From Methylophilus sp. (GTDB taxonomy: Bacteria > Pseudomonadota > Gammaproteobacteria > Burkholderiales > Methylophilaceae), in contig JAUYRP010000011.1 of assembly GCA_030696695.1 (NCBI GenBank), positions 372,001 to 436,000 on the forward strand: a stretch of DNA of 64,000 bases, given 5' to 3'. Made by a program: the position numbers and the translations under genes. Each line of letters starts with the position of its first letter. Position 1 is the stretch's first letter. The notes under the pieces were generated by a model that saw only the letters and a program-made list of their open reading frames with translations, was not told the origin of the DNA and did not search any database. Shown here in pieces: positions 7,608-52,696 of the stretch.

Positions 7608-10209
<2,602 letters not shown>

Positions 10210-10264
10210 GACGGAATTTTAAGCGCGAATCAGAGGATTGACCACAAGCATTTGTGATTGAGCG

Positions 10265-11611
10265 TTACCAATCAAAATCACGGCGAATCTGAATAGACAT
10301 CGTGGCACGCTCAAATGCATTTAATTCAATATTAGATTCATTTTTAATCAGGCTAATTTGTGGCTTCACTGTCCAGTAGCGTGCTGGCACATAATTCACA
10401 CCCAAGGTAATGTCATATTGCTCATCTTTGCGTTTGCGTAAAAATGCTAAATCTTCCGCTTTGTGATCGCGTGACTCAAAACCCGCGGACACATAGGCCA
10501 ACCAACTTGGCGCAACCACCAATTGGCCACCAGCACGCACGCCATAAATATCTTGGTCTAAGAATCGCGCATTCGCTCTCACGGTATCTTCTTGCGCAAC
10601 GTATGCCCCGAAAAATACCACTGGGTTTGTGCTGGCCTCAAACGCATGCGCATAGTTGAGCCCAAACACATAGCGATCTGCATCACGGATTGGGCTATCC
10701 TCATATTCAAGCTTGGCATATTGGCCATACACGCTTGCTTGATTTTGTGGATCTATATTCTTCTGCCATTGTGCGGTAGCACCATAAGCATGACGAAATG
10801 TGGCATCGTCCACATAAAAGTGACCATCTTGTACGGCTAACGTATAACTATTGTCATCCTGCTTAATTTGCACACCCAAGTTCAAATCAATCGCTGCGGT
10901 TTCAAACGCGTGATACGTTTGATTAATGCGTTTGGCAAATTGCACATTACCAATAAAAGCCACCTGCTCAGAGGCCGGAATGCGAAAGCCTGCTCCACCT
11001 GCTAGACTAAAAAAAGTATCAGACTTCTTTTTGGCTTCATCCGCCAAGGTAAAGTTGAGCCCACCAAATACGGGCACCGATATAGTATTCGCACCGGTGG
11101 CGCTATTCACATTACTATCCCAGCCCAGCCCTGTCTCTAAAAAGCCATGATAAGTCGTGCTTATTCCCATGGCTTTATCGATTGCGGATAAATACTTTTC
11201 AATGGCTTTGGCGGTTTCAGCAGACGGATTTTGGTTAAGCAAATAATTAAACTCGGTTTTAGACGAAGCCACTTCACCCAAGAAAAAATGGGCTTTGGCG
11301 ATTTTGGCGCGCGCTAACGCGTTGTTCGGGTCAATCACTAACACACGTTCCAATGCAAACATGCCTTGGGTGTAGTGTCCACTTTCAACTGCCGCATTAC
11401 CAAGCAGCAAGTCAAAATCCAGATGGCCAGCGTATTGTTTTTCTAAAGGCAATAATGCTTGATATGCGCCTTCAAAATCATTGGCGTGGATTAAGGTTTC
11501 TGCTTGTTGAATTGCGGGATGGTTTGCAGCTTCTGCTGCTGAAGCAATTGGTGTGGCTGTTGAGAAAATCCACATACAACCAACAACACAGATTGTATGC
11601 AGCCGCAGCAT
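10265..11611 (-). CDS. Secreted TPR plus outer-membrane beta-barrel protein, Slam/DUF560-like
   Basis: About 448 aa. A signal peptide (MLRLHTICVVGCMWIF up to SAAEA) is followed by roughly 130 residues of TPR-like helices (ANDFEGAYQALLPLEK; ALERVLVIDPNNALARAKIA), then from LETGLGWDSNVNSATG onward about 290 residues of alternating-pattern strands ending in FDW, typical of an outer-membrane barrel. TPR plus barrel beginning with a G.GWDSN.N motif is the layout of Slam surface-lipoprotein translocons and related DUF560 proteins. I prefer ATG 11611, eight bases beyond the end of lolA, over the GTG-type extension to 11641 that would overlap lolA. The gene interrupts the otherwise conserved lolA-rarA junction. 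Fold assignment is fairly secure; a Slam function is inference. Confidence 0.7.
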   Translation of the reverse strand: MLRLHTICVVGCMWIFSTATPIASAAEAANHPAIQQAETLIHANDFEGAYQALLPLEKQYAGHLDFDLLLGNAAVESGHYTQGMFALERVLVIDPNNALARAKIAKAHFFLGEVASSKTEFNYLLNQNPSAETAKAIEKYLSAIDKAMGISTTYHGFLETGLGWDSNVNSATGANTISVPVFGGLNFTLADEAKKKSDTFFSLAGGAGFRIPASEQVAFIGNVQFAKRINQTYHAFETAAIDLNLGVQIKQDDNSYTLAVQDGHFYVDDATFRHAYGATAQWQKNIDPQNQASVYGQYAKLEYEDSPIRDADRYVFGLNYAHAFEASTNPVVFFGAYVAQEDTVRANARFLDQDIYGVRAGGQLVVAPSWLAYVSAGFESRDHKAEDLAFLRKRKDEQYDITLGVNYVPARYWTVKPQISLIKNESNIELNAFERATMSIQIRRDFDW

Positions 11612-11618
11612 GTTGGAA

Positions 11619-12242
11619 TTATTCGCCCACCACATCCACACCTTTAGGTGTGCTGAACAAGAATGTCTCGGTAGCCAAAGTTGGATTACGTTCTATTTGA
11701 TTGAAGGCAATATGGGTCACATGACTAAAGCTGTCGTACAACTCCATTTTCTTAAGTTGCCCATCTTTAAAGCCAAGCAGCACGCGGTCAAAACCACTTT
11801 CTTTGTCTTTAGGCAATGCCAACACCCAAGTTAAGCTATCTTTGCGCACTGCATTCTTGAGCGTAAAGCTTTTTTCTACCGCTTCGCCACCCGCCAACAT
11901 AGCAGCTGGGCTAGAGCCAAGCGTTTTACTTAAATCTCGCACTGTCACTTGCTGTAAATCCATGTCATACAAGAACACCTGCTTACCATCGCTGATAATT
12001 TGCTGTTCATAGGGCTTTTGATAGTCCCAGCGGAATTTATTGGGGCGTTGTAGCTGCATGGTGCCTTCCACCATTTGCACCTTGCGCCCCTGCTTATCTA
12101 ACACCTCTTGTTTAAAATCAGCACGCATGGATTGCGTGTTCAAGAAAAAGTCTTTTAAGCTACTCACGCCATCCGCATGTACGGTTGTAGTAATCAAAAG
12201 GCAGATGGATAACAGTAATTTATGCATAATTTGACTACTCAT
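11619..12242 (-). CDS. lolA: Outer-membrane lipoprotein carrier LolA
   Basis: A periplasmic chaperone that takes lipoproteins from the LolCDE transporter to the outer membrane. At 207 aa it has a signal peptide ([18 protein letters not shown]) and LolA-family segments [37 protein letters not shown] and [19 protein letters not shown]. The ATG at 12242 overlaps the end of ftsK by eight bases (ATGAGTAG), implying translational coupling. An internal ATG at 12227 would also give a good signal peptide. Immediately followed by the TPR/barrel gene. Confidence 0.95.
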
Positions 12243-14547
12243 GGCTTCCAGAGCCGCTGTTGGCTAACACTTCTCGATTACCGTTACTTTGCATGGCAGA
12301 CACTAAACCAGCGCGTTCCATCTCTTCAATCAAACGCGCTGCGCGGTTGTAGCCTATACGTAACTGGCGCTGTACAGAAGAAATAGAGGCGCGGCGGCTG
12401 GTCAATACAATATTTACCGCTTCGTCATACAAAGGATCTTTCTCACCACCAGTGTCACTCAACACACTGCCTTCGCTACTCTCTTCTGTTTCATTAGTGA
12501 GAATACCTTCGATGTAATTTGGTTCACCTTGCGATTTTAGGTAGTTAACTACTTTATGCACTTCTTGGTCGGATACAAAAGCACCGTGGATACGTTGAGG
12601 GAAGCCAGTGCCCGGTGGCATATACAGCATATCGCCCTGCCCTAACAATGCCTCTGCTCCCATCTGGTCTAAAATAGTACGTGAATCGATCTTGCTCGAC
12701 ACTTGAAACGCCACACGCGTAGGAATATTGGCTTTAATCAGCCCAGTAATCACGTCCACCGATGGTCGCTGTGTGGCTAACACCAAGTGAATACCTGAAG
12801 CACGTGCTTTTTGTGCCAAGCGTGCAATCAGTTCTTCCACTTTTTTGCCGACGACCATCATCAAATCGGCTAACTCATCAATCACCACCACAATCAAGGG
12901 CATTTCATCCAGCGGTTCTGGGTCATCTGGGGTTAGGCTAAACGGATGCGGAATGGTCGTATCGGCTTTTTTAGCATCATGGATTTTTTGGTTGTAACCT
13001 GCAAGATTACGCACGCCTAACATCGACATGAGCTTGTAGCGGCGCTCCATCTCGGCCACGCACCAATTCAACGCATTGGCTGCTTGGCGCATGTCCGTCA
13101 CCACTGGTGCTAATAAGTGTGGAATGCCTTCATACACGGAGAGCTCCAGCATTTTCGGGTCGATTAAAATCATGCGTACTTTGCTAGCTTCGGCTTTATA
13201 AAGCAAACTCAAAATCAATGCATTAATGGCTACTGATTTACCAGAGCCAGTGGTACCCGCCACTAATACATGGGGCATTTTGGCTAAGTCTGCTACAACA
13301 GGCTTGCCTGCAATGTCTTTGCCCATCGCAATCGCCAAAGGTGAATGCATATCTGCATACACTTGGCTACCCATGATTTCGGATAAGCAAACAATTTGGC
13401 GTTTAGGGTTAGGTATTTCCAAGCCCATACAGCTTTTACCAGGAATCGTCTCCACCACACGGATACTGACCACCGACAATGCACGTGCTAAGTCTTTGGC
13501 TAAGTTGGTGATTTGGCTACCTTTTACACCTGGGGCTGGCTCAAACTCATAGCGCGTAATCACTGGGCCTGGTTGCGCTGAAATTACTTTTACTTCAATG
13601 CCAAAATCAACCAATTTACGTTCGATTAAGCGCGAAGTGAAATCTAAGGTTTCTGCAGATTGAAGCTCTACTGTGGAAGTCACTTCATCAAGTAAATGTA
13701 ATGGTGGCAAATCACTGTCAGGCAAGCTATCGAATAACACCGTTTGACGCTCTTTTAGCACACGTTCACTTTTAGGAATCTCTAGCTCAGGTACTTTAAT
13801 CTCAATCGGCGCCCTGTCTTCTGTGCGTTTACGTTCTGTTTCTATGTATTCATCACGTTTAATTTCAACTTGTTTACCTGCTTTGCGGTCTTGCCAATCG
13901 TAATACTTATCCAAAGTCCAAGCATGTGCGGCGAGCACCCAAGCACCTAATTTTTCCGTCATCATAATCCATGACCAACCTGTGAACAGGCTAAAGCCAA
14001 TTGCCATCAGAATAATCAAGAACATAGTTGAGCCAGCAAAACCAAACATACTGCGCAATAACGAATCTAAAGCATTACCGATCATCCCGCCCTGTGTGAG
14101 CGGAAACTGCGCTGGTAGTGCCAATAAGTGCCCCGATTCAAAAGCAGCAGAGGCTAAAATTAAGAGTGTGAAGCCCACTAAATTGAACAATAGAAACGGT
14201 CGCTCGCTGACGGTGGTACCTAGGCGTTTATACACTAACCACATGCCATAAAACGCCAACACCACCCACCACCATGCTGAAAAGCCAAATAGATACAGCA
14301 GCATATCGGATACCCAAGCGCCTACAGCGCCGCCTGCATTGTTGACAGCCGCTTCCTCGCTGGCCATATGCGACCAAGACGGATCTTGTGGAGAGTAAGT
14401 AATCAGAATAACCGCCAAATATAGGCCGACTAATACCAAGCCTAGCCACCAGGCTTCTTTGACTAAACTCGCACCATGCAGTGCCTTTTCGCTGGGTTCT
14501 GTTTGAACTCGACCGTTAGAAGGTGAGGATTTTTTATTAAAAAACAA
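12235..14547 (-). CDS. ftsK: DNA translocase FtsK
   Basis: A septal DNA pump that clears chromosome ends during division and activates XerCD recombination. At 770 aa it has four predicted N-terminal membrane segments (about residues 30-200), a short Glu/Lys-rich linker, the RecA-like motor with Walker [15 protein letters not shown] near residue 430 and Walker [18 protein letters not shown], and a C-terminal winged-helix gamma domain ([18 protein letters not shown], then [20 protein letters not shown]) that reads KOPS. The linker is short compared with E. coli FtsK, closer to the SpoIIIE plan. First gene of the ftsK-lolA-TPR-rarA-serS run. Confidence 0.97.
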
Positions 14548-18399: not shown

Positions 18400-20859
18400 T
18401 TAAAAGAATGCTGAAAGAGACACGAATAGTGATCTTGGAATGCCAGGGTGCGCAATCGTGGCATCGCTTGCTCTAGCGATATACTCTCGGTCGAACAGGT
18501 TTTTTACATTCATGCTTGCACGCACGTTCTTCCAGTTATACCACAGGCTAAAGTCAGCCACGGTATAGGCATCCAGCTTAAGGTTGGTATCAAACTGAGC
18601 GGTACTTTCATCCACATAGCGTGCACCAATTCCCATGCCCAATCCGGCAAGAGGGCCTCCATTTACAAAATCGTAGGTAAGCCAAACGCGCGCTGCATTT
18701 GGCGACACGCTCCCTAGTGGTTGACCCACTTGTGTAGGGTCGTTCCTATTCTCCAACACTTCAGTATCTGTATAGGCATAACTGGCAACCACTTTAATTT
18801 GATCGGTCAGATTACCTGTCGCATCCAGTTCAACACCACGACTGCGTTGTTTTATCCCCGGGAAAAATGCGTTTTGCCCAGTAGCATTAAACAAAGCTTG
18901 GTTAAACACAGCAACATCCTTCTTCTCGATATCATAGAAGGCAATAGTTGTTAGGAACCTTTCCGCAAAAAATGTGCTTTTTAGACCAATTTCATATTGT
19001 CTGCCAGTTGTAGGGTCGAGTGGGTTACCTGTCTCATCCACAGTACTGGGTGTCTGCGGACGGAAAGATTGACTAGCACTGAGGTAAGCAGAATGCTGAT
19101 CTGTCAACATAAACAGCGCGCCTAATCTCCCAGTAAACGCTTGGTCCTCTACACGTTGTGTGGCAACGCCATTGTTACTACCAGACGTCACCACATCGTC
19201 AAACCTACCACCCAACAAGAGCTTCAAGCGACCATCTTCTAGCAGTGATAGCTGATCTTGAAAGTACAAGCTTGTCCATCGCGTTTTGGCGCGCTCGTCG
19301 CTCAGTGTCAGGTTAGCTGGTGGCACAAAGTTCACTACTGGGTCGTTGGATATAGCAACACTTGGCGCATTCACACGAAAGCGTTGCCACTCGGTTTCCT
19401 GTTCAATCAGTTCAGTACCGATTAAGAAGGTATGATCAATCGATCCCGTTTTGAATTTAGCAGTGCCATCAAGTACAAACTGCACCTCATCATCCACACG
19501 GTCCTCGTTTTGATATCTGAGGAGTAAGTTGTTGCCTTGAATACCTCGCGGACGTAGCGACTCATTCTGGTTGTCAGCTCGGTGGTACTGAAGTTGATTA
19601 CGAATGCTCCACGTTGAGTTAAACGTATGAGACAACTGGTAGCCAACGTAGTAATCCTCGTTCGTCCTACCATCCAGTGTATCGTCAATAAATGAAGTGC
19701 TCTCAGACACTCTGGGCTTACCGTTAGTAAATAGTGGAACACCCGTATCGTAAGGTTGCTTTTCTTTTAAGTATGAAAAATCAACCAATAACTCGGTGTT
19801 ATCGCTAGGCTTCCAAAGTAGGCTTGGTGCAATGGCTATACGATCCAAATCCATCGAGTCGCGGAATGAGTTGCTGTCTGTGTGTGCGACATTCACTCGA
19901 TATAAGAGCGTTTCATCTTTATTGAGCGCACCCGTTGAATCGACAGTCGTTCGTCGAAAGTCATAACTACCCAACTGCTGTTCGACTCTGTGGCTGGACT
20001 CGGCTTGCGGACGCTTGGTGACATAGTTCACGATACCACCTGGCTCAAGTGCTCCATAAAGAATAGAGGCTGGCCCTTTGAGCACCTCTACACGTTCAAC
20101 GTTTACAAGATCTACTGCGCCAGCGTTAGTTGCACGCAGGCCATTACGCATCAGATTAGGCGATTCAAAACCACGGATAATTGGCAGCACTTCGGTTTGC
20201 GCATTCAGTGTGTTGCCTGCCTGTTGAACCCCACTGACATTTTCATATACATCCTTCAGATTGAGTGCCACTTGGTCTTCGATTACATCACGAGTAATCA
20301 CCTGAACAGATGCTGGCGTCTCAAGAATGCTCGTGTCTGTTTTTGTGCCTGTAGCACTCCGTTTTGCAACATAGCCGTTGACTGGGCTCCAAGCATTTTC
20401 CGGGGTTGTTCCAGCCGTTACATTCACGGTTGGCAGTTCTTGCACATCTTTTACGTCACGTGCTACCACCTCTGGCAATGTTTCAACCAGTGTAGATTTC
20501 TTTGTTGCCTTTTGTAACTGATAAACCCCTTTAGCACTCTCAACGGCTTGCAGCTCTGTGCCCATCAATAAGGCATCAAATGCCTGCTGGATAGTATAGT
20601 TGCCGTTGATTCCTGCACTGGTTTTACCGTCTACTAATGCTGGTGGCAACGTAACACTTACGCCAGCTAGGCTTGCAAACTCACCGAGTGATTGTGCCAA
20701 TGTGCCAGATTTAACGTGATAACTCGCCGATGCTTTGGTCGTGCTCTCAGCCGCATGTACAACTGAAAATGGTATAAAAACCGCGTGACTGACGGCCGTT
20801 AGCATGAGTGCGACTTGTACCGCTTTGCGCACTTGGTTACCTTGAGGTTTTTGTTGCAT
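18400..20859 (-). CDS. TonB-dependent siderophore receptor with STN signalling domain (cassette 1)
   Basis: An outer-membrane transporter of 819 aa. After a signal peptide (ending near VHAAEST) comes an STN domain (YHVKSGTLAQSLGEFASLAG, then YTIQQAFDALLMGTELQAV; about residues 45-112) that talks to FecR. A plug follows (ETPASVQVITRDVIE; ERVEVLKGPASILYGALEPG; IVNYVTKRPQ), then a 22-strand barrel ending SLFVSLSAFF. Plug sequence is of the FhuE/FpvA-type siderophore class; the ligand cannot be read from sequence. The ATG at 20859 has a strong GGGAAGG ribosome site; the extension to 20913 does not. Downstream of its own fecI and fecR homologues. Confidence 0.93.
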   Translation of the reverse strand: MQQKPQGNQVRKAVQVALMLTAVSHAVFIPFSVVHAAESTTKASASYHVKSGTLAQSLGEFASLAGVSVTLPPALVDGKTSAGINGNYTIQQAFDALLMGTELQAVESAKGVYQLQKATKKSTLVETLPEVVARDVKDVQELPTVNVTAGTTPENAWSPVNGYVAKRSATGTKTDTSILETPASVQVITRDVIEDQVALNLKDVYENVSGVQQAGNTLNAQTEVLPIIRGFESPNLMRNGLRATNAGAVDLVNVERVEVLKGPASILYGALEPGGIVNYVTKRPQAESSHRVEQQLGSYDFRRTTVDSTGALNKDETLLYRVNVAHTDSNSFRDSMDLDRIAIAPSLLWKPSDNTELLVDFSYLKEKQPYDTGVPLFTNGKPRVSESTSFIDDTLDGRTNEDYYVGYQLSHTFNSTWSIRNQLQYHRADNQNESLRPRGIQGNNLLLRYQNEDRVDDEVQFVLDGTAKFKTGSIDHTFLIGTELIEQETEWQRFRVNAPSVAISNDPVVNFVPPANLTLSDERAKTRWTSLYFQDQLSLLEDGRLKLLLGGRFDDVVTSGSNNGVATQRVEDQAFTGRLGALFMLTDQHSAYLSASQSFRPQTPSTVDETGNPLDPTTGRQYEIGLKSTFFAERFLTTIAFYDIEKKDVAVFNQALFNATGQNAFFPGIKQRSRGVELDATGNLTDQIKVVASYAYTDTEVLENRNDPTQVGQPLGSVSPNAARVWLTYDFVNGGPLAGLGMGIGARYVDESTAQFDTNLKLDAYTVADFSLWYNWKNVRASMNVKNLFDREYIARASDATIAHPGIPRSLFVSLSAFF

Positions 20860-20979
20860 AACCTTCCCTTTTAAAATAAACGTGATTGGATTAGCGAGAA
20901 TTTCTTCTCTCATTACCTACATCACACGCCAGATTTAAAAAAGGGACAAAGAAATAGAAGATTTTTTGCTTGGTCATGC

Positions 20980-21927
20980 CTAAACGTCTGCGGCGTCTAA
21001 CATCACCCAATATCTTGTGAGATAACGTACTTTTACTGGCAACATGCTCGGCAAACTATCAATCACGGCACTGACGTTATTGAGTTGAAAAGCGCCTGAT
21101 ATTTTAAGATCAGCTACTTCTGGCGCACAGCGCAATGTACCGCTTCGATAGCGGTTCAGCTCACTGACAAAATCTACTAGCCGCATCTCACGTGCGAACA
21201 GTATGCCGCGAGTCCAGCTCTCTATATGTGTGTCAATTGCGTTGGCAACTTCAATTTTATGTTCACTGAATCGGGTTTGTTTCTGCGCATGCACCACGTG
21301 ACGATCACCCTGCTTTGTAGCAATTTCTACCGAACCCTCAATCACAGACAGCAAGATATCTTCGTCATTTTGTTTCACCACAAATCGCGTCCCCAGTGGC
21401 TTGAGCTGCCCAAACGCAGTGACTACCGAAAATGGTCTGCTAAGCGCATCGCTTTTGCTGGTTTGTATCATGATTTCACCAGCTTCAAGCACAATTTGAC
21501 GCTGCTTGTCATCAAACCGAGTGTTAATCCCTGACGACGTGTTGAGATAAATCTCAGTACCGTCGCTTAAGACCACTTTCCGTTGCTCGCCAGTGTGCGT
21601 GGTGTATTCTGCACGGTATAGGCGCGCTGGTTCGCTTTGCCAACCTTGCCAACCCAAACTACCCGCAGTCACCAGAACCGCTAAGGTTTTGATTGCATGG
21701 CGGCGATTGATCTGCGCGCTTGTTTTCAACGTAGCATAGGCCAAACCACTTGGCATACCAACAAACTTTTCACTCACTTCTACTGCGCGTTGCCATGCAA
21801 GCTCATGAGCAGGGTCAGCATTTCGCCATGCTTGGCAAGCACGCTGTTCTGCTAGAGTTGTACTCGGTTCTTGCAGACGGAAATACCATTCCGCAGCTTC
21901 TATGGCTATTTTTTCAGAAATTGTCAT
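20980..21927 (-). CDS. FecR-type anti-sigma/sigma-regulator (cassette 1)
   Basis: A 315-aa single-pass inner-membrane regulator. The cytoplasmic part shows the FecR N-terminal signature (AAEWYFRLQEPSTTLAEQRA, then CQAWRNADPAHELAWQRA). One membrane segment follows at about residues 78-95 (TLAVLVTAGSLGWQGW), then the periplasmic FecR domain (EYTTHTGEQRKVVLSDGTEI, LNTSSGINTRF, PLGTRFVVKQ) and a C-terminal STN-like segment. It relays the receptor's ligand-bound state to the sigma factor. Its ATG overlaps the sigma-factor stop by four bases (ATGA), so the pair is translationally coupled. Confidence 0.93.
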   Translation of the reverse strand: MTISEKIAIEAAEWYFRLQEPSTTLAEQRACQAWRNADPAHELAWQRAVEVSEKFVGMPSGLAYATLKTSAQINRRHAIKTLAVLVTAGSLGWQGWQSEPARLYRAEYTTHTGEQRKVVLSDGTEIYLNTSSGINTRFDDKQRQIVLEAGEIMIQTSKSDALSRPFSVVTAFGQLKPLGTRFVVKQNDEDILLSVIEGSVEIATKQGDRHVVHAQKQTRFSEHKIEVANAIDTHIESWTRGILFAREMRLVDFVSELNRYRSGTLRCAPEVADLKISGAFQLNNVSAVIDSLPSMLPVKVRYLTRYWVMLDAADV

Positions 21928-22433
21928 GGCATCAACAAAATACAGCGTGCCATGGCCTGTACCATATAGCGCTTTACGGTGCGCTCACTCACTGATAGCT
22001 GCGATGCAATTTGCGCATAAGTCAGCCCTTCCAGCTGCGCTATTAAAAACGCCTCTCGTACTTTTGTAGGCAAACCATCCAGCATGCTGTCAATTTGCTG
22101 TAACGTTTCTAAAATCAACACATTATGTTCAGGTGATGGTTTGGTTAAGTCAGACGAATGCGCTAAGAAATCAAGATATGCCTGTTCTAATGCTCTACGA
22201 CGGTAAAGATTTGCAACCAACCGCTTCGCAACCACGGTAAGGTATGCACGGGGCTCATCTAAATGCCAGTTTGAATTTTTATCTACAAGATAATCTGGTG
22301 CGCTCAAAATACGCATAAATGTATCTTGCGCCACATCTGCTGCATCTGCCGCATGCACTAGCCTGCGCTGCAACCTAGTGCGCAGCCAATGATAGTGGTT
22401 AGCGTATAAGTGGTGAATGGTGGCAGGAGCCAT
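21924..22433 (-). CDS. FecI-type ECF sigma factor (cassette 1)
   Basis: A 169-aa extracytoplasmic-function sigma factor. Region 2 is DAADVAQDTFMRIL with the following RAYLTVVAKRLVANLYRR; region 4 is VREAFLIAQLEGLTYAQIA, then SVSERTVKRYMVQAMARC. The two-domain layout without region 3 is typical of FecI. It is expected to direct transcription of the downstream receptor when FecR signals ligand binding. Upstream lies a Fur-box-like sequence (22474-22492), so iron-starvation control is likely. Confidence 0.94.
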   Translation of the reverse strand: MAPATIHHLYANHYHWLRTRLQRRLVHAADAADVAQDTFMRILSAPDYLVDKNSNWHLDEPRAYLTVVAKRLVANLYRRRALEQAYLDFLAHSSDLTKPSPEHNVLILETLQQIDSMLDGLPTKVREAFLIAQLEGLTYAQIASQLSVSERTVKRYMVQAMARCILLMP

Positions 22434-22473
22434 ATTGCATGATGGCCAGAATTATTCATGGCCATATATAGTA

Positions 22474-22492
22474 AATAAGAATCATTATCATA
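22474..22492 (-). promoter_or_regulatory. Fur box upstream of cassette-1 sigma factor
   Basis: AATAAGAATCATTATCATA resembles the reverse of the Fur consensus GATAATGATAATCATTATC (core AATCATTATC exact). Lies 41 bases before the sigma-factor ATG in the divergent 236-bp control region, a position suited to promoter occlusion by Fur-Fe(II). Confidence 0.75.
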
Positions 22493-22618
22493 TATATGAA
22501 TATTAGCGTCAACACTATACACGCACTAGATTGTTCAATGTTATGTCCATATGATGTCTGAACCCTTTCATTACTCTACCCTAGTGAGGTTGTCGATTTA
22601 ACTAATATGTCTTATCAT

Positions 22619-22637
22619 GAGAATGATTATCATTTAT
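22619..22637 (+). promoter_or_regulatory. Fur box upstream of cassette-2 sigma factor
   Basis: GAGAATGATTATCATTTAT matches the 19-bp Fur consensus at 14 positions and overlaps a second half-site series (TTATCATGAGAATGATTA). It is 33 bases upstream of the plus-strand sigma factor ATG. Confidence 0.75.
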
Positions 22638-22669
22638 AATTTTCAAGTCATTCAAATTAAGGCTATGTC

Positions 22670-23179
22670 ATGGCAACTTCGGAGGCGTCCATTCAACAAG
22701 AAGTACACTCGTTGTATCGTTCTCATCATGGCTGGTTAGTGAGTTGGTTAAAACGACGCCTAGGATGCATACAAAATGCCAATGACTTGGCGCAAGACAC
22801 GTTTTTACATGTTATCGACAAATCCACCAGCTTTGCTCAAGTCAATGAACCACGCGCATTATTAAGCACAATCGCCCATGGCCTGATGGTGGATCATGTG
22901 CGCCGAAAAGACTTAGAACAGGCCTACCTTCAGACGATTGCACATTTGCCGCAGCGATTGGATGCCTCGCCAGAAGATCGCTTAATCTTTATTGAAGCAC
23001 TATTGCATATTGATCAACTCTTTAATGGCTTAAAACCCAATGTAAGGGATGTATTTTTACTCTCAAGGCTAGAGGGCATGACATATCCAGAAATCGCCAC
23101 CAAACTAGGCGTATCGCTGAGAACGGTAGAAAGTCATATGGCCCAAGCATTACGCCATGTGCTTACCACGCAGCACTAG
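22670..23179 (+). CDS. FecI-type ECF sigma factor (cassette 2)
   Basis: 169 aa, the same length as its divergent neighbour. Region 2 reads NANDLAQDTFLHVIDK with RALLSTIAHGLMVDHVRRKD; region 4 reads VRDVFLLSRLEGMTYPEIA and GVSLRTVESHMAQALRH. Both sigma factors share the LEQAYL segment between domains, which argues for common origin. It should serve the downstream FecR and receptor genes. A Fur-like site lies just upstream. Confidence 0.94.
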   Translation: MATSEASIQQEVHSLYRSHHGWLVSWLKRRLGCIQNANDLAQDTFLHVIDKSTSFAQVNEPRALLSTIAHGLMVDHVRRKDLEQAYLQTIAHLPQRLDASPEDRLIFIEALLHIDQLFNGLKPNVRDVFLLSRLEGMTYPEIATKLGVSLRTVESHMAQALRHVLTTQH

Positions 23180-23247
23180 ACTATGCTTTACGCTGAGCAG
23201 TTACAGCGATATGCTGTAGGCCTTTATCCTTTCTAGGCTATATTGCA

Positions 23248-24300
23248 GTGAGCGCTCCTAGTCCATCACCCGCTGAGCAATTAGCAAACCCTGATCATGT
23301 TGACATTGCGCAATCGATACACGAGGAATTAATTGCATGGTCAGTTAAGTTAAATTCAGGGCTATTCACTGCAGAAGACACACAGCAGTTTGAACATTGG
23401 CGTGCACTGAGCCCTGCGCATGAAGCCGCTTGGCAAAAGCTATATGCCGTGGAGCAAAATTTGCGCACACTGCCTGCAGAGGCTAAACATATGGCTGTAG
23501 AAACATTACAGATTGCAGATAAGCAAAGGAATCGCCCCACCACCCGTAACCGCACGTTTAAGCTGATAAGTTTAACCATCATCACACTCATGGGGGCTGC
23601 ACTCGTTGCAAATCAATACGCCCCTTGGCAGCAGTCGCTTCACTACGCCACAAGCGTAGGCAAAACAGAAAACTTTTTACTGGCAGATGGCACACAACTG
23701 ATGTTGAACACCAATTCCAAAGTGGAAATAAAACTTTCCTTATTAAAGCGAGAAATTGTATTGCAGCGTGGCGAAATTTATATAGAAACTGGCAAAGACA
23801 GTGACTCCATTATCGGACGTCGTTCATTTTGGGTTAAGACTGAACAAGCTGAACTGGAGGCTATTGGTACGCGTTTTTCTGTCAATCAGCAATCTTCCAG
23901 TACAAAACTACACGTAGTAGATGGCATTGTCGCGATGCATGTAGATAATGACGTGCCGCCAGTACGCGCGTATGCCAATGAAACCTATACGATGCCTGAT
24001 GCCGTGTCGGCACCGATTAAAATGGGCACAACAGATGATGGGCTGCACATGGATCCAATGGCTTGGGTCAATGGCATGTTGGTCGTTAAACAGATGCGGT
24101 TGGATGAGTTCGCCATCGAGTTGTCACGCTATCAAAATTTGCCCGTGGTCTGTGAGCCGAGTGCAAGTAACCTGAAGGTCTCTGGGGTATTTCAATTAAA
24201 CCGTGCTGATCCTGTGGAGTATGCGCTCAAAGCCATTTCTAGAACACTGCCAGTGCGCATGCGTAAGCAAGATGACATCATCTTTATCAGCAAAAAATAG
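23248..24300 (+). CDS. FecR-type anti-sigma/sigma-regulator (cassette 2)
   Basis: 350 aa with the same plan as the cassette-1 FecR: cytoplasmic N-terminus (EELIAWSVKLNSGLFTAED, then FEHWRALSPAHEAAWQKLY), one membrane segment near residues 108-125 (LISLTIITLMGAALVANQY), the periplasmic FecR domain (ENFLLADGTQLMLNTNSKVE, EAIGTRFSVNQQ) and a C-terminal STN-like part (NLPVVCEPSASNLKVSGVFQ). Begins with GTG 68 bases after the sigma-factor gene; an alternative start a few codons in cannot be excluded. Confidence 0.92.
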   Translation: MSAPSPSPAEQLANPDHVDIAQSIHEELIAWSVKLNSGLFTAEDTQQFEHWRALSPAHEAAWQKLYAVEQNLRTLPAEAKHMAVETLQIADKQRNRPTTRNRTFKLISLTIITLMGAALVANQYAPWQQSLHYATSVGKTENFLLADGTQLMLNTNSKVEIKLSLLKREIVLQRGEIYIETGKDSDSIIGRRSFWVKTEQAELEAIGTRFSVNQQSSSTKLHVVDGIVAMHVDNDVPPVRAYANETYTMPDAVSAPIKMGTTDDGLHMDPMAWVNGMLVVKQMRLDEFAIELSRYQNLPVVCEPSASNLKVSGVFQLNRADPVEYALKAISRTLPVRMRKQDDIIFISKK

Positions 24301-24418
24301 TGTGTTTACGCAATATTAATAAAACCTACCTAAAGTAATTGCAAAAAAACTGCGGGTTTTTTGCTAGTTGTTCGGCATAAGGTTATTTATCTCAAACTCA
24401 GTAAGGGATGTTTAACCT

Positions 24419-26866
24419 ATGCTTCACCAACACACCAATCAATTCTCTAACCGTTCCACTCATTTGTCACGCAAGCTAGCGCCAAGCAAAAAGATTGCAA
24501 GCTTTGTACGCGCATTATTTTTAACGGGTGGATTTGCTGTAATGGCACTTACCTTTACAGGATTAGCCAACGCTACTGACTCTAAACCAGCTCATTACAA
24601 TGTGCCAGCAGGCAATCTTGAGGATGCACTCAACGCATTTGCAAAACAATCTGGTGTCACGTTAACGTATGACCCTGCCATAGTTAGAGGTAAAAGCGTT
24701 AGTGCAATCAACGGTGAATTCACTCAGCAGCAAGTCTTAAATAACTTGCTCAAAGGTACAGGGTTGGGACCAGTAACACGTGATGGCGCCATAGTAGTCC
24801 AATCCATTCCTGCACGTAGTGAACTGCTAGAAGAGGTGGTTGTTAAAAGTACAAAGGAGACTTCGCACAAAGGCTTATCCGCACCTTTCGCTGGTGGTCA
24901 GGTGGCAAAAGCTAGTCGTGTGGGAATTCTGGGCAATGTCGATATCTTTGACACCCCCTTCAGTACGCAAAGCTTTACTGATGAGTTTGCGCTGGACCAA
25001 CAAGCACGGCGCGTAGCAGATATCATTGCAGTAGATCCATCTGTACGCAGTGCGATGGCTGAATATGGTGACAGTGAAACTTACATGATTCGCGGTTTTC
25101 CGTTATTTGTGAATCAAGTGGGGATGAATGGTTTATATGGTATGACAGAACTCAGACGCATTGCTCCAGAGTTCTATGAGCGTGTAGATGTGTTAAAAGG
25201 ACCAGCTTCTATGCTTAACGGCAGCAGCCCATTTGGTATCACGGGCGGCAATATTAATTTGGTGACAAAACGTGCTGATGACAAACCGCTCAACCGCTTC
25301 ACGGGTAGTTATATCTCGGATAGTCAATTTGGTGGGCATGTGGATTTTGGTCGTCGTTTTGGCGAGGATAACGTTTGGGGTGTGCGCCTTAATTTACTTG
25401 CACGTGACGGGGAAACACCGATTAACAATCAGGAAGACCGGATGTATGACGGTTCTTTGGCTGTGGATTATCGTGGTGAAAAGTTAAGCGCTAGTCTGGA
25501 CATGATTAGTCAAGACCGTATCACAAAAGCATACTCTGGGAATATTACTTACAACCAAGGCTTTGCACTGCCGCGTGCTCCGGATAATGATAAAAACTAT
25601 GTCAATGATTGGGAGTACTTCAAAGGCAACTCTAATAATTGGATAGCAAAAGCAGAATATGAATTTAGCCCAGAAATTAGCACGTATGTAACTTATGGGC
25701 AGGCAAAAGGGCAGGAAGAATATTTTTATGCGGGTACACAAGGCCGTCGTTTTATCAACAGCGCGGGCGATTTTACTGGGCGCGTAGGTGGATATAAAGG
25801 CTATTACGAAGTGGAAACCTATGAGGTGGGTTTGCGCGGTCGTATGATGCTGGGCAATATTAGTAATAGCTATGCGCTTTCTTATAGTGATTTTGATCGT
25901 ACCGCCGGTGGTGCGACGGTGCATGCAACCGGCGTATACACAGGCAATGTGTATGAAAGGCCTAATCTCCCTAAACCTACCGTCAATTATGGCGTAATTC
26001 CTCAAAACGGAGATTTACAACTAAGCAGTTTGGGCTTAATCAATACCTTTGGTTTTTTAGAAGATAGCTTATTAATCACGTTAGGTGCGCGCGATCAAAA
26101 GCTGTATAGCGGCATTTTCACAACAGGTGTAAAAACTGGCGCTTATGACAAAAGCAAAATAACACCCACAGTGGCAGTGCTAGGTAAGTTAGGTAACTAC
26201 TCTCTTTACGGAAACTACAGTGAAGGATTATCGCAGGGTGCCACTGCGCCTAACACTGCAACTAATGCACGTGAGAATTTAGGCCCTTTTGTAAGTAAGC
26301 AATTCGAAGCTGGCGTGAAGTATAACGCTGGCACTTTTGGACTGACCGCGGCAGTATTCCAAATAAGTCAGCCAAGTACCTATACCACTACAGCTGGACG
26401 TTTTGTAGCAGATGGTGAACAACGTAACCGAGGGCTGGAGTTATCTACCTTTGGCGAACCATTGAATGGCGTACGCTTACTAGGTGGTATTACTTTGATT
26501 GACCCGGAGCAAACTCAGACACTGAATGGTGTGAATGACGGTAAAGATGGAATTGGTGTACCTAGAGTGAATGTAGTGATGAATGGGGAATATGATATTT
26601 TCGCCATCCCTGGGTTAACCCTGACTGGTCGTGTTAGTGCATTTAGTGATGCACAAGCGGATGTTGGGAATACGCAGAGTATTCCTGGTTGGACTAGATT
26701 AGATGCTGGTGCACGTTATATTACAGAAGTTTCGGGTAAGGTAGTCACCTTACGCGCCAATGTGATAAACCTCACCAATAGGGACTATTGGAACTCTGTC
26801 TCTCGCAGTTTTATTACACAAGGTGCGCCTCGTACAGCGTTAATCTCGGCAACAGTTGATTTTTAA
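24419..26866 (+). CDS. TonB-dependent siderophore receptor with STN signalling domain (cassette 2)
   Basis: 815 aa. A long basic N-region and signal peptide (ending near GLANATD) lead to an STN domain (YNVPAGNLEDALNAFAKQSG, then EFTQQQVLNNLLKGTGL; about residues 58-128). The plug has PFSTQSFTDEFALDQQARRV, ETYMIRGFPLF, ERVDVLKGPASMLNGSSP and NINLVTKRAD. The barrel ends LISATVDF with terminal Phe. The plug differs clearly from the cassette-1 receptor, so a different ligand is probable. It is followed after 18 bases by the PepSY gene, suggesting one transcript. The 118-bp gap before it has a weak A/T hairpin at 24341-24363. Confidence 0.93.
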   Translation: MLHQHTNQFSNRSTHLSRKLAPSKKIASFVRALFLTGGFAVMALTFTGLANATDSKPAHYNVPAGNLEDALNAFAKQSGVTLTYDPAIVRGKSVSAINGEFTQQQVLNNLLKGTGLGPVTRDGAIVVQSIPARSELLEEVVVKSTKETSHKGLSAPFAGGQVAKASRVGILGNVDIFDTPFSTQSFTDEFALDQQARRVADIIAVDPSVRSAMAEYGDSETYMIRGFPLFVNQVGMNGLYGMTELRRIAPEFYERVDVLKGPASMLNGSSPFGITGGNINLVTKRADDKPLNRFTGSYISDSQFGGHVDFGRRFGEDNVWGVRLNLLARDGETPINNQEDRMYDGSLAVDYRGEKLSASLDMISQDRITKAYSGNITYNQGFALPRAPDNDKNYVNDWEYFKGNSNNWIAKAEYEFSPEISTYVTYGQAKGQEEYFYAGTQGRRFINSAGDFTGRVGGYKGYYEVETYEVGLRGRMMLGNISNSYALSYSDFDRTAGGATVHATGVYTGNVYERPNLPKPTVNYGVIPQNGDLQLSSLGLINTFGFLEDSLLITLGARDQKLYSGIFTTGVKTGAYDKSKITPTVAVLGKLGNYSLYGNYSEGLSQGATAPNTATNARENLGPFVSKQFEAGVKYNAGTFGLTAAVFQISQPSTYTTTAGRFVADGEQRNRGLELSTFGEPLNGVRLLGGITLIDPEQTQTLNGVNDGKDGIGVPRVNVVMNGEYDIFAIPGLTLTGRVSAFSDAQADVGNTQSIPGWTRLDAGARYITEVSGKVVTLRANVINLTNRDYWNSVSRSFITQGAPRTALISATVDF

Positions 26867-26884
26867 GGGCTGATTTTAAAAGCG

Positions 26885-28165
26885 ATGCGTTCTGTTTTTA
26901 TCTTACTTCACCGCTATGTCGGCCTATTGATTGCAGTTTTTCTGATTTTCAGCGGGCTGACCGGTGCCATCATTTCTTGGGACCATGAGTTGGATGACTG
27001 GCTTAATCCCCATCTGACAAAAACCCAAAGTGTAGGCTTGCCTATTTCGCCGATGGAAATTGCCAAGCAGGTTGAGGCGCGCTACCCAGAGGTGCGCGTG
27101 ACGAATCTACCCATTAGTCTTGAATATGGCGAGTCTTATCACTTTGGTGTAAGCCCAAAACAAAATCTAGATACTAACCGTTTATATGCGCCAGGCTTTA
27201 ACCAAATCTTTATTGATCCTGTAACTGGCGAAGAACTTGGTAAGCGACAGTGGGGGCAAGTATGGCCAATTACACAAGAAACGTTTGTCTCATTTCTCTA
27301 CAAACTACACTACTCGCTGCACATGCCAGAAATGTGGGGAACTGACCGCTGGGGCATCTGGCTATTGGGTGTGATTGCGATTTTGTGGACTCTGGATAGC
27401 TTTATTGGCTTTTACCTAACATTGCCAGCCAAACGGCGTCTTAATGCCAGAAAATATCAAACGGATGAGTCAGATGAGTTACCTACAGCAGACTTACCAA
27501 TGCCAGCGAACAAATCATGGTGGCAACGCTGGCAACCTGCATGGAAAGTGCGCTGGACTAGTGGCTCTGCCAAACTTAACTTCGACTTGCACCGTGCGTT
27601 TGGGCTTTGGACATGGGCCCTATTGTTTATCATCGCCTTTACGGCACTTTCATTAAATCTTTATCGGGAAGTGTTCCTTCCCATTATGTCTAAGGTTTCA
27701 AATGTCACACCAACCCCATTTGATTTACGCGTGCGTGCTCCAAAACATGCGCCGATAGCGCCAGCAAAGCAATATGAGGATATCATTTCAACAGCAGAAA
27801 CTGATGCAAAAAATCGAGGTTGGCCAGAGCCTGCAGGCAGTGTGCTCTATAACCAAGGCTTTGGTATTTATGGTGTGCAGTTCTATTTTCCGGAAGAGGG
27901 TCACGGTGCTGGAGGTGTTGGCCATAAACGCTTGTATTACGATGGCCAAGATGGAAGATACCTAGGCGACCGTCAACCATGGAAAGGCACAGTTGCCGAC
28001 ATCTTCGTACAAGCCCAATTTCCAGTGCATTCTGGACGCATACTGGGCTTGCCAGGTCGAATATTAATATCTGTGATGGGTTTGGTAGTGGCAATGCTCA
28101 GCTTGACGGGTTATCTAGTTTGGTGGCGTAAATATACATCCCGCCGAAAATACTTAACCATTTAA
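26885..28165 (+). CDS. PepSY-associated transmembrane protein, iron-uptake linked (cassette 2)
   Basis: A 426-aa PepSY_TM family inner-membrane protein. The first membrane segment carries the family motif LLHRYVGLLIAVFLIFSGLT. Further segments occur near residues 160-180 (IWLLGVIAILWTLDSFIGFY), 235-260 and at the C-terminus (RILISVMGLVVAMLSLTGYL). The periplasmic loops hold PepSY-like segments (ELGKRQWGQVWPI; LYYDGQDGRYLGDRQP). Shares WQRWQPAWKVR and a NFDLH motif with the cassette-1 copy at equivalent places, so the two are paralogues. Probably moves iron-siderophore handling to the inner membrane; the biochemical role of the family is not settled. Confidence 0.88.
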   Translation: MRSVFILLHRYVGLLIAVFLIFSGLTGAIISWDHELDDWLNPHLTKTQSVGLPISPMEIAKQVEARYPEVRVTNLPISLEYGESYHFGVSPKQNLDTNRLYAPGFNQIFIDPVTGEELGKRQWGQVWPITQETFVSFLYKLHYSLHMPEMWGTDRWGIWLLGVIAILWTLDSFIGFYLTLPAKRRLNARKYQTDESDELPTADLPMPANKSWWQRWQPAWKVRWTSGSAKLNFDLHRAFGLWTWALLFIIAFTALSLNLYREVFLPIMSKVSNVTPTPFDLRVRAPKHAPIAPAKQYEDIISTAETDAKNRGWPEPAGSVLYNQGFGIYGVQFYFPEEGHGAGGVGHKRLYYDGQDGRYLGDRQPWKGTVADIFVQAQFPVHSGRILGLPGRILISVMGLVVAMLSLTGYLVWWRKYTSRRKYLTI

Positions 28166-48318: not shown

Positions 48319-50883
48319 TCATTTTTCTTTTCTTTCAGAAATCAATTGGCAAATCAATGCGCTCCAATAGGGCAGCGATTGCAAGGTCAACATTAAGACC
48401 CATAATTGCGCATCTAAATTCTCAAATCCACGGGTTGCAAGCATAGCAATGCTTGCCATAATGAGTGCCGATAGCAGCCCGACCTCCTCATAAATAGGTT
48501 TAAAAATCTCCCATTGCTTACCTATAATTTTGCCTTTTGCGGTGACTTTAAACACACCACGTTTTTGAACAAGTCCCATCAACACGCCACGCGCAATCGC
48601 ATGTGATAAAGCCAAACTTGCGAGCGAGGCGCCCCATATATCCATCCAGCTACATTTCATGGTTTTGCGGTAAAGCACAGGGCCCAGTGCTGCCTTAATG
48701 GCCAAAAAGCAGATGATCGGCATAATCATGATCGCTACAGGCAAGCTAAATTCTTTGGGGAATGCCAGCATCGCCACTGTCCATAGTATAGAGCCGAGTG
48801 TGAAAAATAACTGCAATGCATCGCCCAGCCAACCAAACCACCCTGTTAAAAAGTGGTAACGCTGGCCAAAATTCAGCGTCGATTTACCTAGTAATTCAGA
48901 CATATGATGTTTAAGAATTTGCATCGCGCCAAAGGCCCAACGGTAACGCTGTGATTTAAGCGCATTGAAATTGGCAGGTGTCAGCCCGCGTCCAAATACA
49001 TCGTCCACATAGCGTAATTCATAGCCGCGCTCTAACAATCGCAAGCCTAATTCTGTATCTTCGCAGATACACCATTCTGACCATTTTCCGCAATCTATCA
49101 GCGCTTGATGTCGTACCAAGGTCATGGTGCCATGTTGAATCAGTGCATTACGCTCATGGCGATGATGCATACCGATTTTGAAAAAGCCCTCAAATTCCCA
49201 ATTACACATTCTTCTAAAAAAGTTATGTTCCCAATCACGGTGCGCTTGTGGTGCTTGCACCACTGCCACCTTGTCGTCTTTAAAATGCGGCACAAGGTCT
49301 GACAGCCAATCCGTTGTCACCACATAATCGGCATCGACCACACCAATCACTTTAGCTTGCGGATTGGTTTGTTCCAACGCAAAATTGAGCGCACCTGCTT
49401 TAAACCCTGGCCAACTGGGCAAATGGAAAAATTTGAAGTTATCAGGCAGTGTCGCCATATAAGTTTCTATAGGCCGCCACTTGGCTTCATCTTTAGTATT
49501 GTTATCCACCACAATGACTTCATACTGCGTGTAATGAAGCTTGGCCAAACTTTCAATAGTGGCGATTACCATTTCTGGTGGCTCGTTGTAACAGGCTAAA
49601 TGTATTGATACGAATAGTTCTTGGTCTGCACTGAGTGGTTTGGCACGCTTAAATGCTCTCACCCAAAGACCTTTGAACATGACCTCACTAAACTCAACAG
49701 CATAAATCATCAACACTGCTGAAGTGAGCAGCATGCCAACAATCAAGCCGATCAAAATAATAAAATCGCGCAGCGAGTAGTAATAGTCGCCCGGCAAATT
49801 CCAAGCGACAACCAATGTGGTAATACAGGCTTGTAACAATATTGCCAATGACACTTTGCCACCTAAGCGCCAATGCCTAAATCGCCAAGCAATAAACATG
49901 ATAGGCAAGAAAGCGATGGCAGATGCCCAAGTGGCTTTCATAATCCAGCGATTGTCTTTTGGTACAGCGCCATTGAGTGAATACTTGGGCTGTCTATCGG
50001 CATCGAACATACCCCAATAGGCACCAGCCCAACCTTCAATCTGTTGTTTCCAAGGCTGGTCAATCGCCTCCATCAAATAATAATCGTAATTTTGATAAGC
50101 TGTTCTGGCTAAAAACTCACGTACAAAGCGCGCTTGATTCACTTGTGATGCTCTTGATGCCCCAATGTCTGGGCCTTCGCTCGGCCAGCCAATTTCGGTA
50201 ATGATAATTTTCTTACGTGGATAAGCGTTCATGACCTCGTTGTAGCGCTGAAATGCATAATTCACAGCATCTTCAACCGGCACGCCTTCATGGTAGGGCA
50301 ATAGGTGCACCGCTATGAAATCCACATGCTTCACCAGTTCAGGATTTTTTAACCAAACATGCCATGGCTCAGCAGTAGAGATAGGAATATCTAGCTTTTC
50401 CCGCACTTCATCTAAATATGGAATGAGCTCCTCTAAGGCGATGTCTTTTCTTAGTAGCACCTCGTTACCCACAATTGCACGCTCAATATTAGGATAAAAG
50501 GCCACTTTTTCTTCTAGGGCCGCAATCTCACGAGCATTATTATCTTTGTCTGGGCTAATCCAAGCCCCTGCAATCACCTCATAGTTTAATTTAGATGCCA
50601 ACGCAGTGATTTCGGCATTATCTAGCGAACCATATAATCGAATACGATTCGTCAGTGGGTTGAGCAACTTTAAGTCTCTGGCCAGCTCCGCCGTGCTGGG
50701 ATATTGATTATCTAAAGGATTCTGATTCTTCTGGTATCCACTGTAGGCAAACCCGTTCACAATGGGTGGTGCATCCAGCATCTGTATAGTGTGATTAGTA
50801 AATGCCCATAGACCAAAATGTATAGCGGCTACTGCCAATGCAAATAGCAAAGGAAAAAGGATGTATTGAAACAGTCGTTGCAT
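48319..50883 (-). CDS. GH17-like / GT2 fusion, beta-glucan synthase (NdvB/NdvC-like)
   Basis: 854 aa. After one membrane segment, residues about 40-310 form a GH17-type barrel with both catalytic glutamates (IVGNEVLLRKD near 140; IIITEIGWPSEG near 230). Membrane helices follow, then a GT2 synthase domain (about 430-680) with VDNNTKDEAKW, DxD in VVDADYVVTTDW near 517, ED in CICEDTELGLRLLERGY near 608 and the QxxRW-like QRYRWAFGAMQ near 645. C-terminal helices form a channel. This combination makes and trims beta-1,3/1,6-type glucans in rhizobial NdvB/NdvC systems. The product here is inferred. Ten bases separate it from the upstream GH17 gene. Confidence 0.88.
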   Translation of the reverse strand: MQRLFQYILFPLLFALAVAAIHFGLWAFTNHTIQMLDAPPIVNGFAYSGYQKNQNPLDNQYPSTAELARDLKLLNPLTNRIRLYGSLDNAEITALASKLNYEVIAGAWISPDKDNNAREIAALEEKVAFYPNIERAIVGNEVLLRKDIALEELIPYLDEVREKLDIPISTAEPWHVWLKNPELVKHVDFIAVHLLPYHEGVPVEDAVNYAFQRYNEVMNAYPRKKIIITEIGWPSEGPDIGASRASQVNQARFVREFLARTAYQNYDYYLMEAIDQPWKQQIEGWAGAYWGMFDADRQPKYSLNGAVPKDNRWIMKATWASAIAFLPIMFIAWRFRHWRLGGKVSLAILLQACITTLVVAWNLPGDYYYSLRDFIILIGLIVGMLLTSAVLMIYAVEFSEVMFKGLWVRAFKRAKPLSADQELFVSIHLACYNEPPEMVIATIESLAKLHYTQYEVIVVDNNTKDEAKWRPIETYMATLPDNFKFFHLPSWPGFKAGALNFALEQTNPQAKVIGVVDADYVVTTDWLSDLVPHFKDDKVAVVQAPQAHRDWEHNFFRRMCNWEFEGFFKIGMHHRHERNALIQHGTMTLVRHQALIDCGKWSEWCICEDTELGLRLLERGYELRYVDDVFGRGLTPANFNALKSQRYRWAFGAMQILKHHMSELLGKSTLNFGQRYHFLTGWFGWLGDALQLFFTLGSILWTVAMLAFPKEFSLPVAIMIMPIICFLAIKAALGPVLYRKTMKCSWMDIWGASLASLALSHAIARGVLMGLVQKRGVFKVTAKGKIIGKQWEIFKPIYEEVGLLSALIMASIAMLATRGFENLDAQLWVLMLTLQSLPYWSALICQLISERKEK

Positions 50884-50892
50884 ACTAGATGA

Positions 50893-52518: not shown

Positions 52519-52696
52519 GTGGTGAGCATTCCATTGACAGTGCGTAACGTAAAAAAACATCACGCTGTGAAGTGCTAGTATGATAATGCAAGTCAAACAA
52601 TATTTACAAAAAAGCTTACATGTTATTTACGCCATCGACTGCACTCACAGTACAATAGTCAATGTTAAGTTAACTTTCATTAGGTCACGCATTTTT

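Follow-up and report, generated by a model that had tools for sequence, protein, structure and literature searches.

A type 11 secretion family protein at the lolA-rarA junction of Methylophilus and its candidate FecR-domain cargo

What does the outer-membrane protein encoded between lolA and rarA in Methylophilus sp. handle, and does its place beside lolA bear on the answer? The gene, here called X (minus strand, positions 10265-11611, 448 amino acids), lies in the 64,000-nucleotide stretch of contig JAUYRP010000011.1 that was analyzed as a whole (the window). A sequence-only reading of the window had recognized in X the domain plan of the Slam translocons, which export lipoproteins to the cell surface, and had suggested a dedicated route from the lipoprotein chaperone LolA to the surface. 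Our results place X in the Slam family (SlipAM/DUF560, type 11 secretion) of outer-membrane proteins. Probably it serves as outer-membrane translocon in a type 11 secretion system (T11SS). The most likely cargo is a non-lipidated FecR-domain protein, the gene for which directly follows X in most other bacteria that carry X. This interpretation builds on the family of X, predicted folds, gene linkage in relatives, joint presence and absence of the two genes, the predicted fold of the partner, which resembles that of Slam cargo, and the lack of a lipobox.

The assignment of X is carried by the profile match. In a search with the profile hidden Markov model of the family, Pfam SlipAM aligned with residues 232-446 of X at 37.5 bits against a cut-off of 22 (E = 2.5e-9), whereas NCBIfam yielded matches far below cut-off only; Pfam TPR_19, a tetratricopeptide repeat (TPR) family, matched at E = 1.5e-6. 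X is the sole SlipAM gene found in its genome at E ≤ 1, and none of 14 control genomes gave a match. We aligned X with 59 relatives and counted family matches within this and the other aligned sets (SlipAM, TPR_Slam, slam_lipo, TbpB_B_D, HphA_C, retention_LapA) at E ≤ 1. SlipAM was matched by 59 of the 60 sequences (best E = 1.7e-23) and TPR_Slam by 26, X itself not being among the listed matches. The residues G163, D165, and N167 of X, all within the motif GWDSNVN (positions 11105-11125), located where the first barrel strand ends, are invariant in the 60 sequences.

An AlphaFold model computed from the same alignment (mean pLDDT 92.5, pTM 0.74) places helices at residues 22-29, 32-42, 46-60, 64-76, 80-93, 98-110, 114-125, and 131-148, the last seven of which constitute a TPR-like helical N-terminal domain (residues 32-148; positions 11168-11518). 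It is followed by a C-terminal β-barrel (residues 153-447; positions 10271-11155), in which DSSP delineates 14 long strands, the first at 153-165 and the last at 433-447, with two short strands at 176-188 left uncounted. Thus, the signal peptide (apparent by eye), the TPR-like helices, the barrel beginning at GWDSNVN, and the strand number anticipated in the sequence-only reading are all borne out. The published Slam plan, as described in the available text of PMC5449769, consists of an N-terminal TPR domain and a 14-stranded barrel. A lipobox expression matched X and two close relatives (3 of 60), in each case within the hydrophobic part of the signal peptide; given the outer-membrane barrel, X is unlikely to be a lipoprotein. 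When the model was compared with the PDB by Foldseek, 14-stranded OmpG chains aligned with TMt values of 0.63-0.74, no Slam entry appeared among the best 50 rows, and a PDB sequence search matched the TPR stretch only (designed TPR proteins and fusions carrying them). The fold search of the model would by itself neither prove nor exclude Slam, and the assignment accordingly relies on the sequence profiles together with the strand count.

The gene most consistently found with X encodes a FecR-domain protein. A pattern derived from the X alignment, used in one scan of genome contigs, returned 164 relatives, and the best 80 of these were kept, 19 from the family Methylophilaceae and 61 from outside it. 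Outside the family, a FecR open reading frame (ORF) is present in 60 of the 61 loci (missing in L110). In 57 loci it immediately follows X in the same orientation; L093 has it on the opposite strand, and L095 and L096 have it upstream of X. Inside the family, FecR is next to X in 10 loci and not in eight, the latter belonging to the wider clade of the window, and in the remaining locus (L064) X reaches the contig end. Several family members carry the FecR gene after X and before rarA, and Pfam FecR was detected in all six that were scanned. The association extends across the order: among 399 genomes, with both genes counted at E = 1e-40, 115 X matches occur in 99 genomes, and a FecR match on the same strand within 1.2 kb follows 87 of them and precedes one more (median gap 51). 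Both genes were found in 82 genomes, X only in 17, FecR only in 16, and neither in 284; in the 16 genomes without X, the FecR matches correspond to open frames of 253-355 amino acids, too short for the full partner.

Two further features were seen around these loci. Several carry a second, short FecR-only gene (~250 amino acids) directly upstream of X, for example, at L080:4055-4810, L083:2866-3648, and L098:6193-6945. Two X-like genes (L205:1-1327 and L206:1078-4071) adjoin a gene for a large protein, repeat-like by eye, with no FecR match, which might represent a different cargo.

To what kind of protein does the FecR gene correspond? Motif and profile counts were made on a set of 47 partners, and a partner profile was built from 44 sequences. 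The structure was predicted, also with 44 sequences, for the partner of the cultured Azospira oryzae DSM 21223, which carries the X and FecR pair. The model (mean pLDDT 87.6, pTM 0.59) comprises a FecR domain at about residues 30-191, a low-confidence linker at 203-224, six strands at 232-317, and eight strands at 332-447. Foldseek ranks 1-13 were all TbpB chains, some of them bound to TbpA (5kkx, E = 5.6e-7, TMt 0.54); HpuA (9mr0) matched at E = 3.8e-4 and NHBA (6cuj, 5o1r) at E = 3e-3 and weaker, with TMt of 0.55-0.66. The first part of the FecR domain superposes on 5ix9, which we take to be the cell-surface anchoring domain of MpAFP, at 1.2 Å over 61 columns (30% identity, TMt 0.73, E = 0.027), and 5ix9 was the only match of the partner profile among PDB sequences (E = 7.3e-4). 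The family retention_LapA matches all 47 partners (best E = 2.7e-10), although the cut-off of 50 bits is not reached by the partner encoded in the window's own genome (18.3) or by the highest score shown (31.9). No lipobox was found in the first 60 residues of any of the 47 partners; a crude AxA signal-peptide motif is present in 39, the signal peptide being otherwise read by eye, and a C-terminal motif in regular-expression form in 38. A barrel profile matched 60 of the 71 FecR ORFs located directly downstream of X (domain E ≤ 0.01), a partly circular figure, many of these proteins having been used to build the profile. The 11 misses include six ORFs running off the locus end, two broken ones, and three whole ones (L044, L072 at 5143, and L075 at 11856).

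T11SS cargo consists of an effector, a pedestal, and an eight-stranded barrel, according to the available text of PMC12282271, and this is the architecture predicted for the FecR partner; the Azospira protein, as modeled, has all three parts. Linkage of the translocon gene to a gene for cargo with a C-terminal TbpBBD-like eight-stranded barrel, as expected of a T11SS, is seen in the relatives of X, whereas the pair of the window's own genome is unlinked. We infer that the FecR cargo would cross the inner membrane by Sec and that X would recognize its C-terminal eight-stranded barrel domain and pass it through the 14-stranded pore. The cargo would then fold outside, where the barrel and the six-stranded pedestal would carry the FecR domain.

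Joint inheritance links X with its candidate cargo even where the genes are apart. Among 187 family genomes, 43 matched X at E ≤ 0.001, and 29 of these were accepted as having an X orthologue (E ≤ 1e-45); the partner was called by hand, at E ≤ 1e-60 or from split pieces extending into the C-terminal part (G071, G162). Both genes are present in 27 genomes, X only in two, the partner only in one, and neither in 157 (Fisher p = 4e-29, uncorrected for phylogeny). In the genome with the partner only (G138), the FecR gene is next to rarA, and the contig breaks off just past it, at the place expected for X. Within the genus of the window's genome (g1, 22 genomes), X and the partner are unlinked and yet occur in the same six genomes (G000, which is the window's own, G067, G070, G071, G072, and G078; p = 1.3e-5, likewise uncorrected for phylogeny), with a weak FecR-only fragment in G064 and a weak X-like match in G076. 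The partner in the window's genome (G000:C32:393688-395157) is a protein of 503 amino acids with a FecR match at E = 3.6e-9 and no lipobox seen; its residues 5-496 align with the 44-sequence partner profile at an hhalign probability of 100, and residues 347-492 match the barrel profile at E = 1.5e-13. The barrel profile is also matched by the seven clade-mates in which the FecR gene at this second site is unbroken. By eye, the second site is characterized by a DUF502-like gene beside the FecR gene, mostly followed by aspS. On the other side, an ssb-MFS-uvrA group (MFS, major facilitator superfamily) is found in G070, G067, G071, and G078, and ssb with the MFS gene in G167, whereas the group is not beside the FecR gene in the window's own genome or in G165 and G166. 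Related genera have the order lolA-X-FecR-rarA, in some of them interrupted after FecR by a GT41 glycosyltransferase gene, whereas the window's clade has its FecR gene at a second site. In FastTree phylogenies, X of the window's clade groups within the family sequences (support 0.96). The FecR proteins of the second site make up a deep clade of their own (support 1.0), separate from those encoded at the junction.

A number of observations weigh against this interpretation. The second-site FecR proteins are not nested among the junction ones, so that relocation of the gene and its replacement fit the tree alike, and the pairing in the window's genome rests on co-occurrence because the two genes are on different contigs. 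The partner of this genome has no match to the pedestal profile, nor to TbpB_B_D or slam_lipo at E ≤ 1, and the modeled partner is that of Azospira. Two family genomes, G168 and G184, have X without a detected partner, although X of G184 runs to the contig end. Across the order, no adjacent partner was detected at E = 1e-40 for 27 of the 115 X genes. When 26 such loci were fetched, 12 (L185, L187, L188, L189, L192, L193, L197, L198, L200, L201, L202, and L203) did hold an ORF matching the partner profile, with a weaker score, upstream of X, or on the other strand; apart from L204 and L190, the neighbors of which are described below, the others showed no partner. Matches of the 47 partners to known Slam-cargo families, the slam_lipo matches among which also count in favor of the interpretation, are confined to a minority: NCBIfam slam_lipo ("Slam-dependent surface lipoprotein") matches 10, with a best E of 1.5e-9, Pfam TbpB_B_D four (best E = 0.0019), and HphA_C one; the one slam_lipo score shown (L078, 27.6 bits) is below the cut-off of 80. 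Finally, the FecR part of the Azospira model also matches anti-sigma proteins (the putative factor 4m0h, E = 3.0e-4, and PupR, 6ovk, E = 3.2e-4).

The resemblance of the FecR domain to the LapA-type module suggests a variant which we hold to be possible, if considerably less probable: a tethered, non-lipid T11SS, in which the FecR domain would act as a retention module in the periplasm or pore and hold the cargo at the surface, X passing the pedestal and barrel out, with the pair co-inherited from two sites in the window's clade. A linked glycosyltransferase could glycosylate the cargo, for which the glycosylation of HMW adhesins provides a model. Of the 80 loci, 35 have a gene for a TPR-GT41 protein (glycosyltransferase family 41, O-GlcNAc-transferase-like) nearby, in most cases as the next gene after FecR (for example, L060:9740-11896, Glyco_transf_41 E = 2.1e-103), and two GT41 open frames occur at other places in the window's genome.

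Could the FecR protein instead remain in the periplasm as a sensor or wall-binder, with X serving as a pore or receptor for something else, so that the two act jointly and X does not export its partner? The anti-sigma matches just mentioned point in this direction, as do the likeness of the X barrel to porins such as OmpG and, in the available text of PMC11233812, a FecR regulator gene beside a Slam/TbpB locus of Lysobacter. We consider this scenario rather unlikely. The partner apparently carries a signal peptide and lacks a cytoplasmic anti-sigma part, for which reason its identification as a FecR anti-sigma factor was rejected, and its C-terminal half is predicted to have a Slam-cargo-like fold. 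Moreover, X neighbors in L188 (E = 1.3e-8) and L204 (E = 3.1e-6) match the barrel profile even though they have no clear FecR domain, and the neighbor in L190 looks alike by eye.

A third possibility, the one suggested in the sequence-only reading, is that X is a Slam-type translocon for surface lipoproteins delivered by LolA and is functionally coupled to the adjoining lolA. The gene order on the minus strand, ftsK (12235-14547), lolA (11619-12242; Pfam LolA, E = 1.2e-47), X, rarA (8890-10209), and serS (7608-8882), is confirmed, with X as the one gene between lolA and rarA, 55 bases before the latter. Close adjacency to lolA likewise holds, the gap being seven bases rather than the eight previously given. 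We set the start of X at ATG 11611, in keeping with the apparent signal peptide and with the nearest homologs; the mechanical ORF is longer, extending to GTG 11641 and overlapping lolA. Besides the short gap and the membership of X in the Slam family, coupling is favored by a promoter scan, in which the lolA-X gap has no listed promoter-like site (the scan gave one weak site, between X and rarA, and fewer sites than in shuffled sequence), and by the available text of PMC9090332, according to which LolA carries lipidated TbpB before Slam.

The survey of the junction, however, divides sharply at the family boundary. X adjoins lolA in 27 of the 29 family genomes with an orthologue, the exceptions being G038, where the upstream gene is murJ-like by eye and on the opposite strand, and G037, where the contig ends ~240 bases upstream. 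Outside the family, lolA is beside X in none of the 61 loci, eight of which show less than 1 kb upstream of X. In many relatives, the gap between lolA and X is about 100-180 bases. In all 16 genomes of genus g1 that lack X, lolA and rarA are 10-33 bases apart, so that X represents a genuine presence/absence difference at the junction. Between lolA and rarA of G159:C2 (L030), around 172005-172518, there are remnants of X interrupted by several stops, in a genome with no FecR partner match. Nor did the search for TbpB-like lipoproteins in the window's genome provide the cargo that a LolA route would call for: no TbpB_B_D match was above cut-off, and slam_lipo results were below cut-off or empty, both being weak negatives since no control genome exceeded the cut-offs either. 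The conserved neighbor of X is the FecR protein, which has no lipobox. LolA coupling was thus rejected as the main explanation and is quite improbable; most simply, the adjacency reflects a site common by descent. For the same reasons X does not fit the strict sense of Slam, a surface lipoprotein translocon, since its partners have no lipobox, although it may also serve a cargo unlike the FecR partner; a conserved lolA link, besides being absent outside the family, is not a published Slam feature. The position beside lolA is therefore a local feature of gene order and no evidence for a lipoprotein route, which corrects a tempting misreading.

It is hardly credible that X should be a common porin fused to TPRs or a polysaccharide exporter of the BcsC, PgaA, or PelB kind, and this reading was rejected on profiles and strand count. 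Although Foldseek ranked BcsC first by E-value (E = 1.2e-11, TM 0.38), followed by FadL and, third, PelBC, and best matches to BcsC-type proteins had been named in the sequence-only reading as a refuting outcome, the BcsC/PelBC-type matches reach a TM of 0.37-0.38 only, X has 14 strands, as the T11SS barrel does, compared with 16 in PgaA (PMC8406197, available text), SlipAM is among the nine Pfam families found for X and BCSC_C is not, and inspection by eye of the flanking genes (5-17 kb) revealed no polysaccharide synthase.

Elsewhere in the window, two sets of genes for a TonB-dependent receptor, a FecR-type anti-sigma factor, and an ECF (extracytoplasmic function) sigma factor, with PepSY-type genes, were recognized by eye at 18400-28165. 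Positions 48319-52596 contain two adjacent genes which, by eye, encode a fusion-like protein of a glycosyl hydrolase and a glycosyltransferase-2 and a related membrane protein.

How, then, do X and its FecR partner compare with the secretion systems already described? In the available text of PMC8406197, nine of ten T11SS clusters contain no characterized protein, and TbpB and HpuA are named as Slam cargo; PMC12282271, in its available text, gives few cargo candidates for the marine cluster 3. The main texts of PMC12282271, PMC8406197, and PMC5449769 do not contain the word FecR, and we found no FecR-type T11SS cargo in the open-access literature searched, which is no proof that none has been published. 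The Lysobacter locus of PMC11233812 combines genes for an RpoE sigma factor, a FecR-family regulator, a TonB-dependent transporter, a Slam-dependent lipoprotein, and Slam, and the available text treats its FecR as a regulator in its own right rather than as cargo. On the best reading, the non-lipidated FecR-barrel protein is a cargo type absent from the main texts of the T11SS surveys PMC12282271, PMC8406197, and PMC5449769. A large T11SS set with a clear, linked, and apparently non-lipidated FecR-barrel partner thus offers a directly testable cargo, with A. oryzae DSM 21223 as a cultured strain that has the pair.

Neisseria Slam1 and Slam2 belong to the same family as X and have the same domain plan (PMC5449769, available text), but their known cargo are lipoproteins, whereas the partners of X have no lipobox. 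The T11SS cargo TbpB, HpuA, and hemophilin/HphA have in common with the predicted fold of the partner a pedestal and a C-terminal eight-stranded barrel, the difference being that the effector part of the partner is a FecR domain; the C-terminal domain of NHBA shows the same pedestal and barrel likeness, as a likeness of fold only. LapA adhesins exit by type 1 secretion. The first part of the FecR domain superposes on the LapA-type anchoring domain 5ix9, although the partner scores below the cut-off of the retention-module family wherever bits are shown. The soluble-cargo T11SS, exemplified by HrpB of Xenorhabdus (PMC8406197, available text), resemble X in the SlipAM barrel and the N-terminal TPR domain and, in relatives of X, also in the adjoining gene, the protein of which has a C-terminal eight-stranded barrel and no lipobox. 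They differ in that the carriers of X are β-proteobacterial and largely environmental, that the partner begins with an N-terminal FecR domain, and that in the window's genome the genes for cargo and translocon are unlinked.

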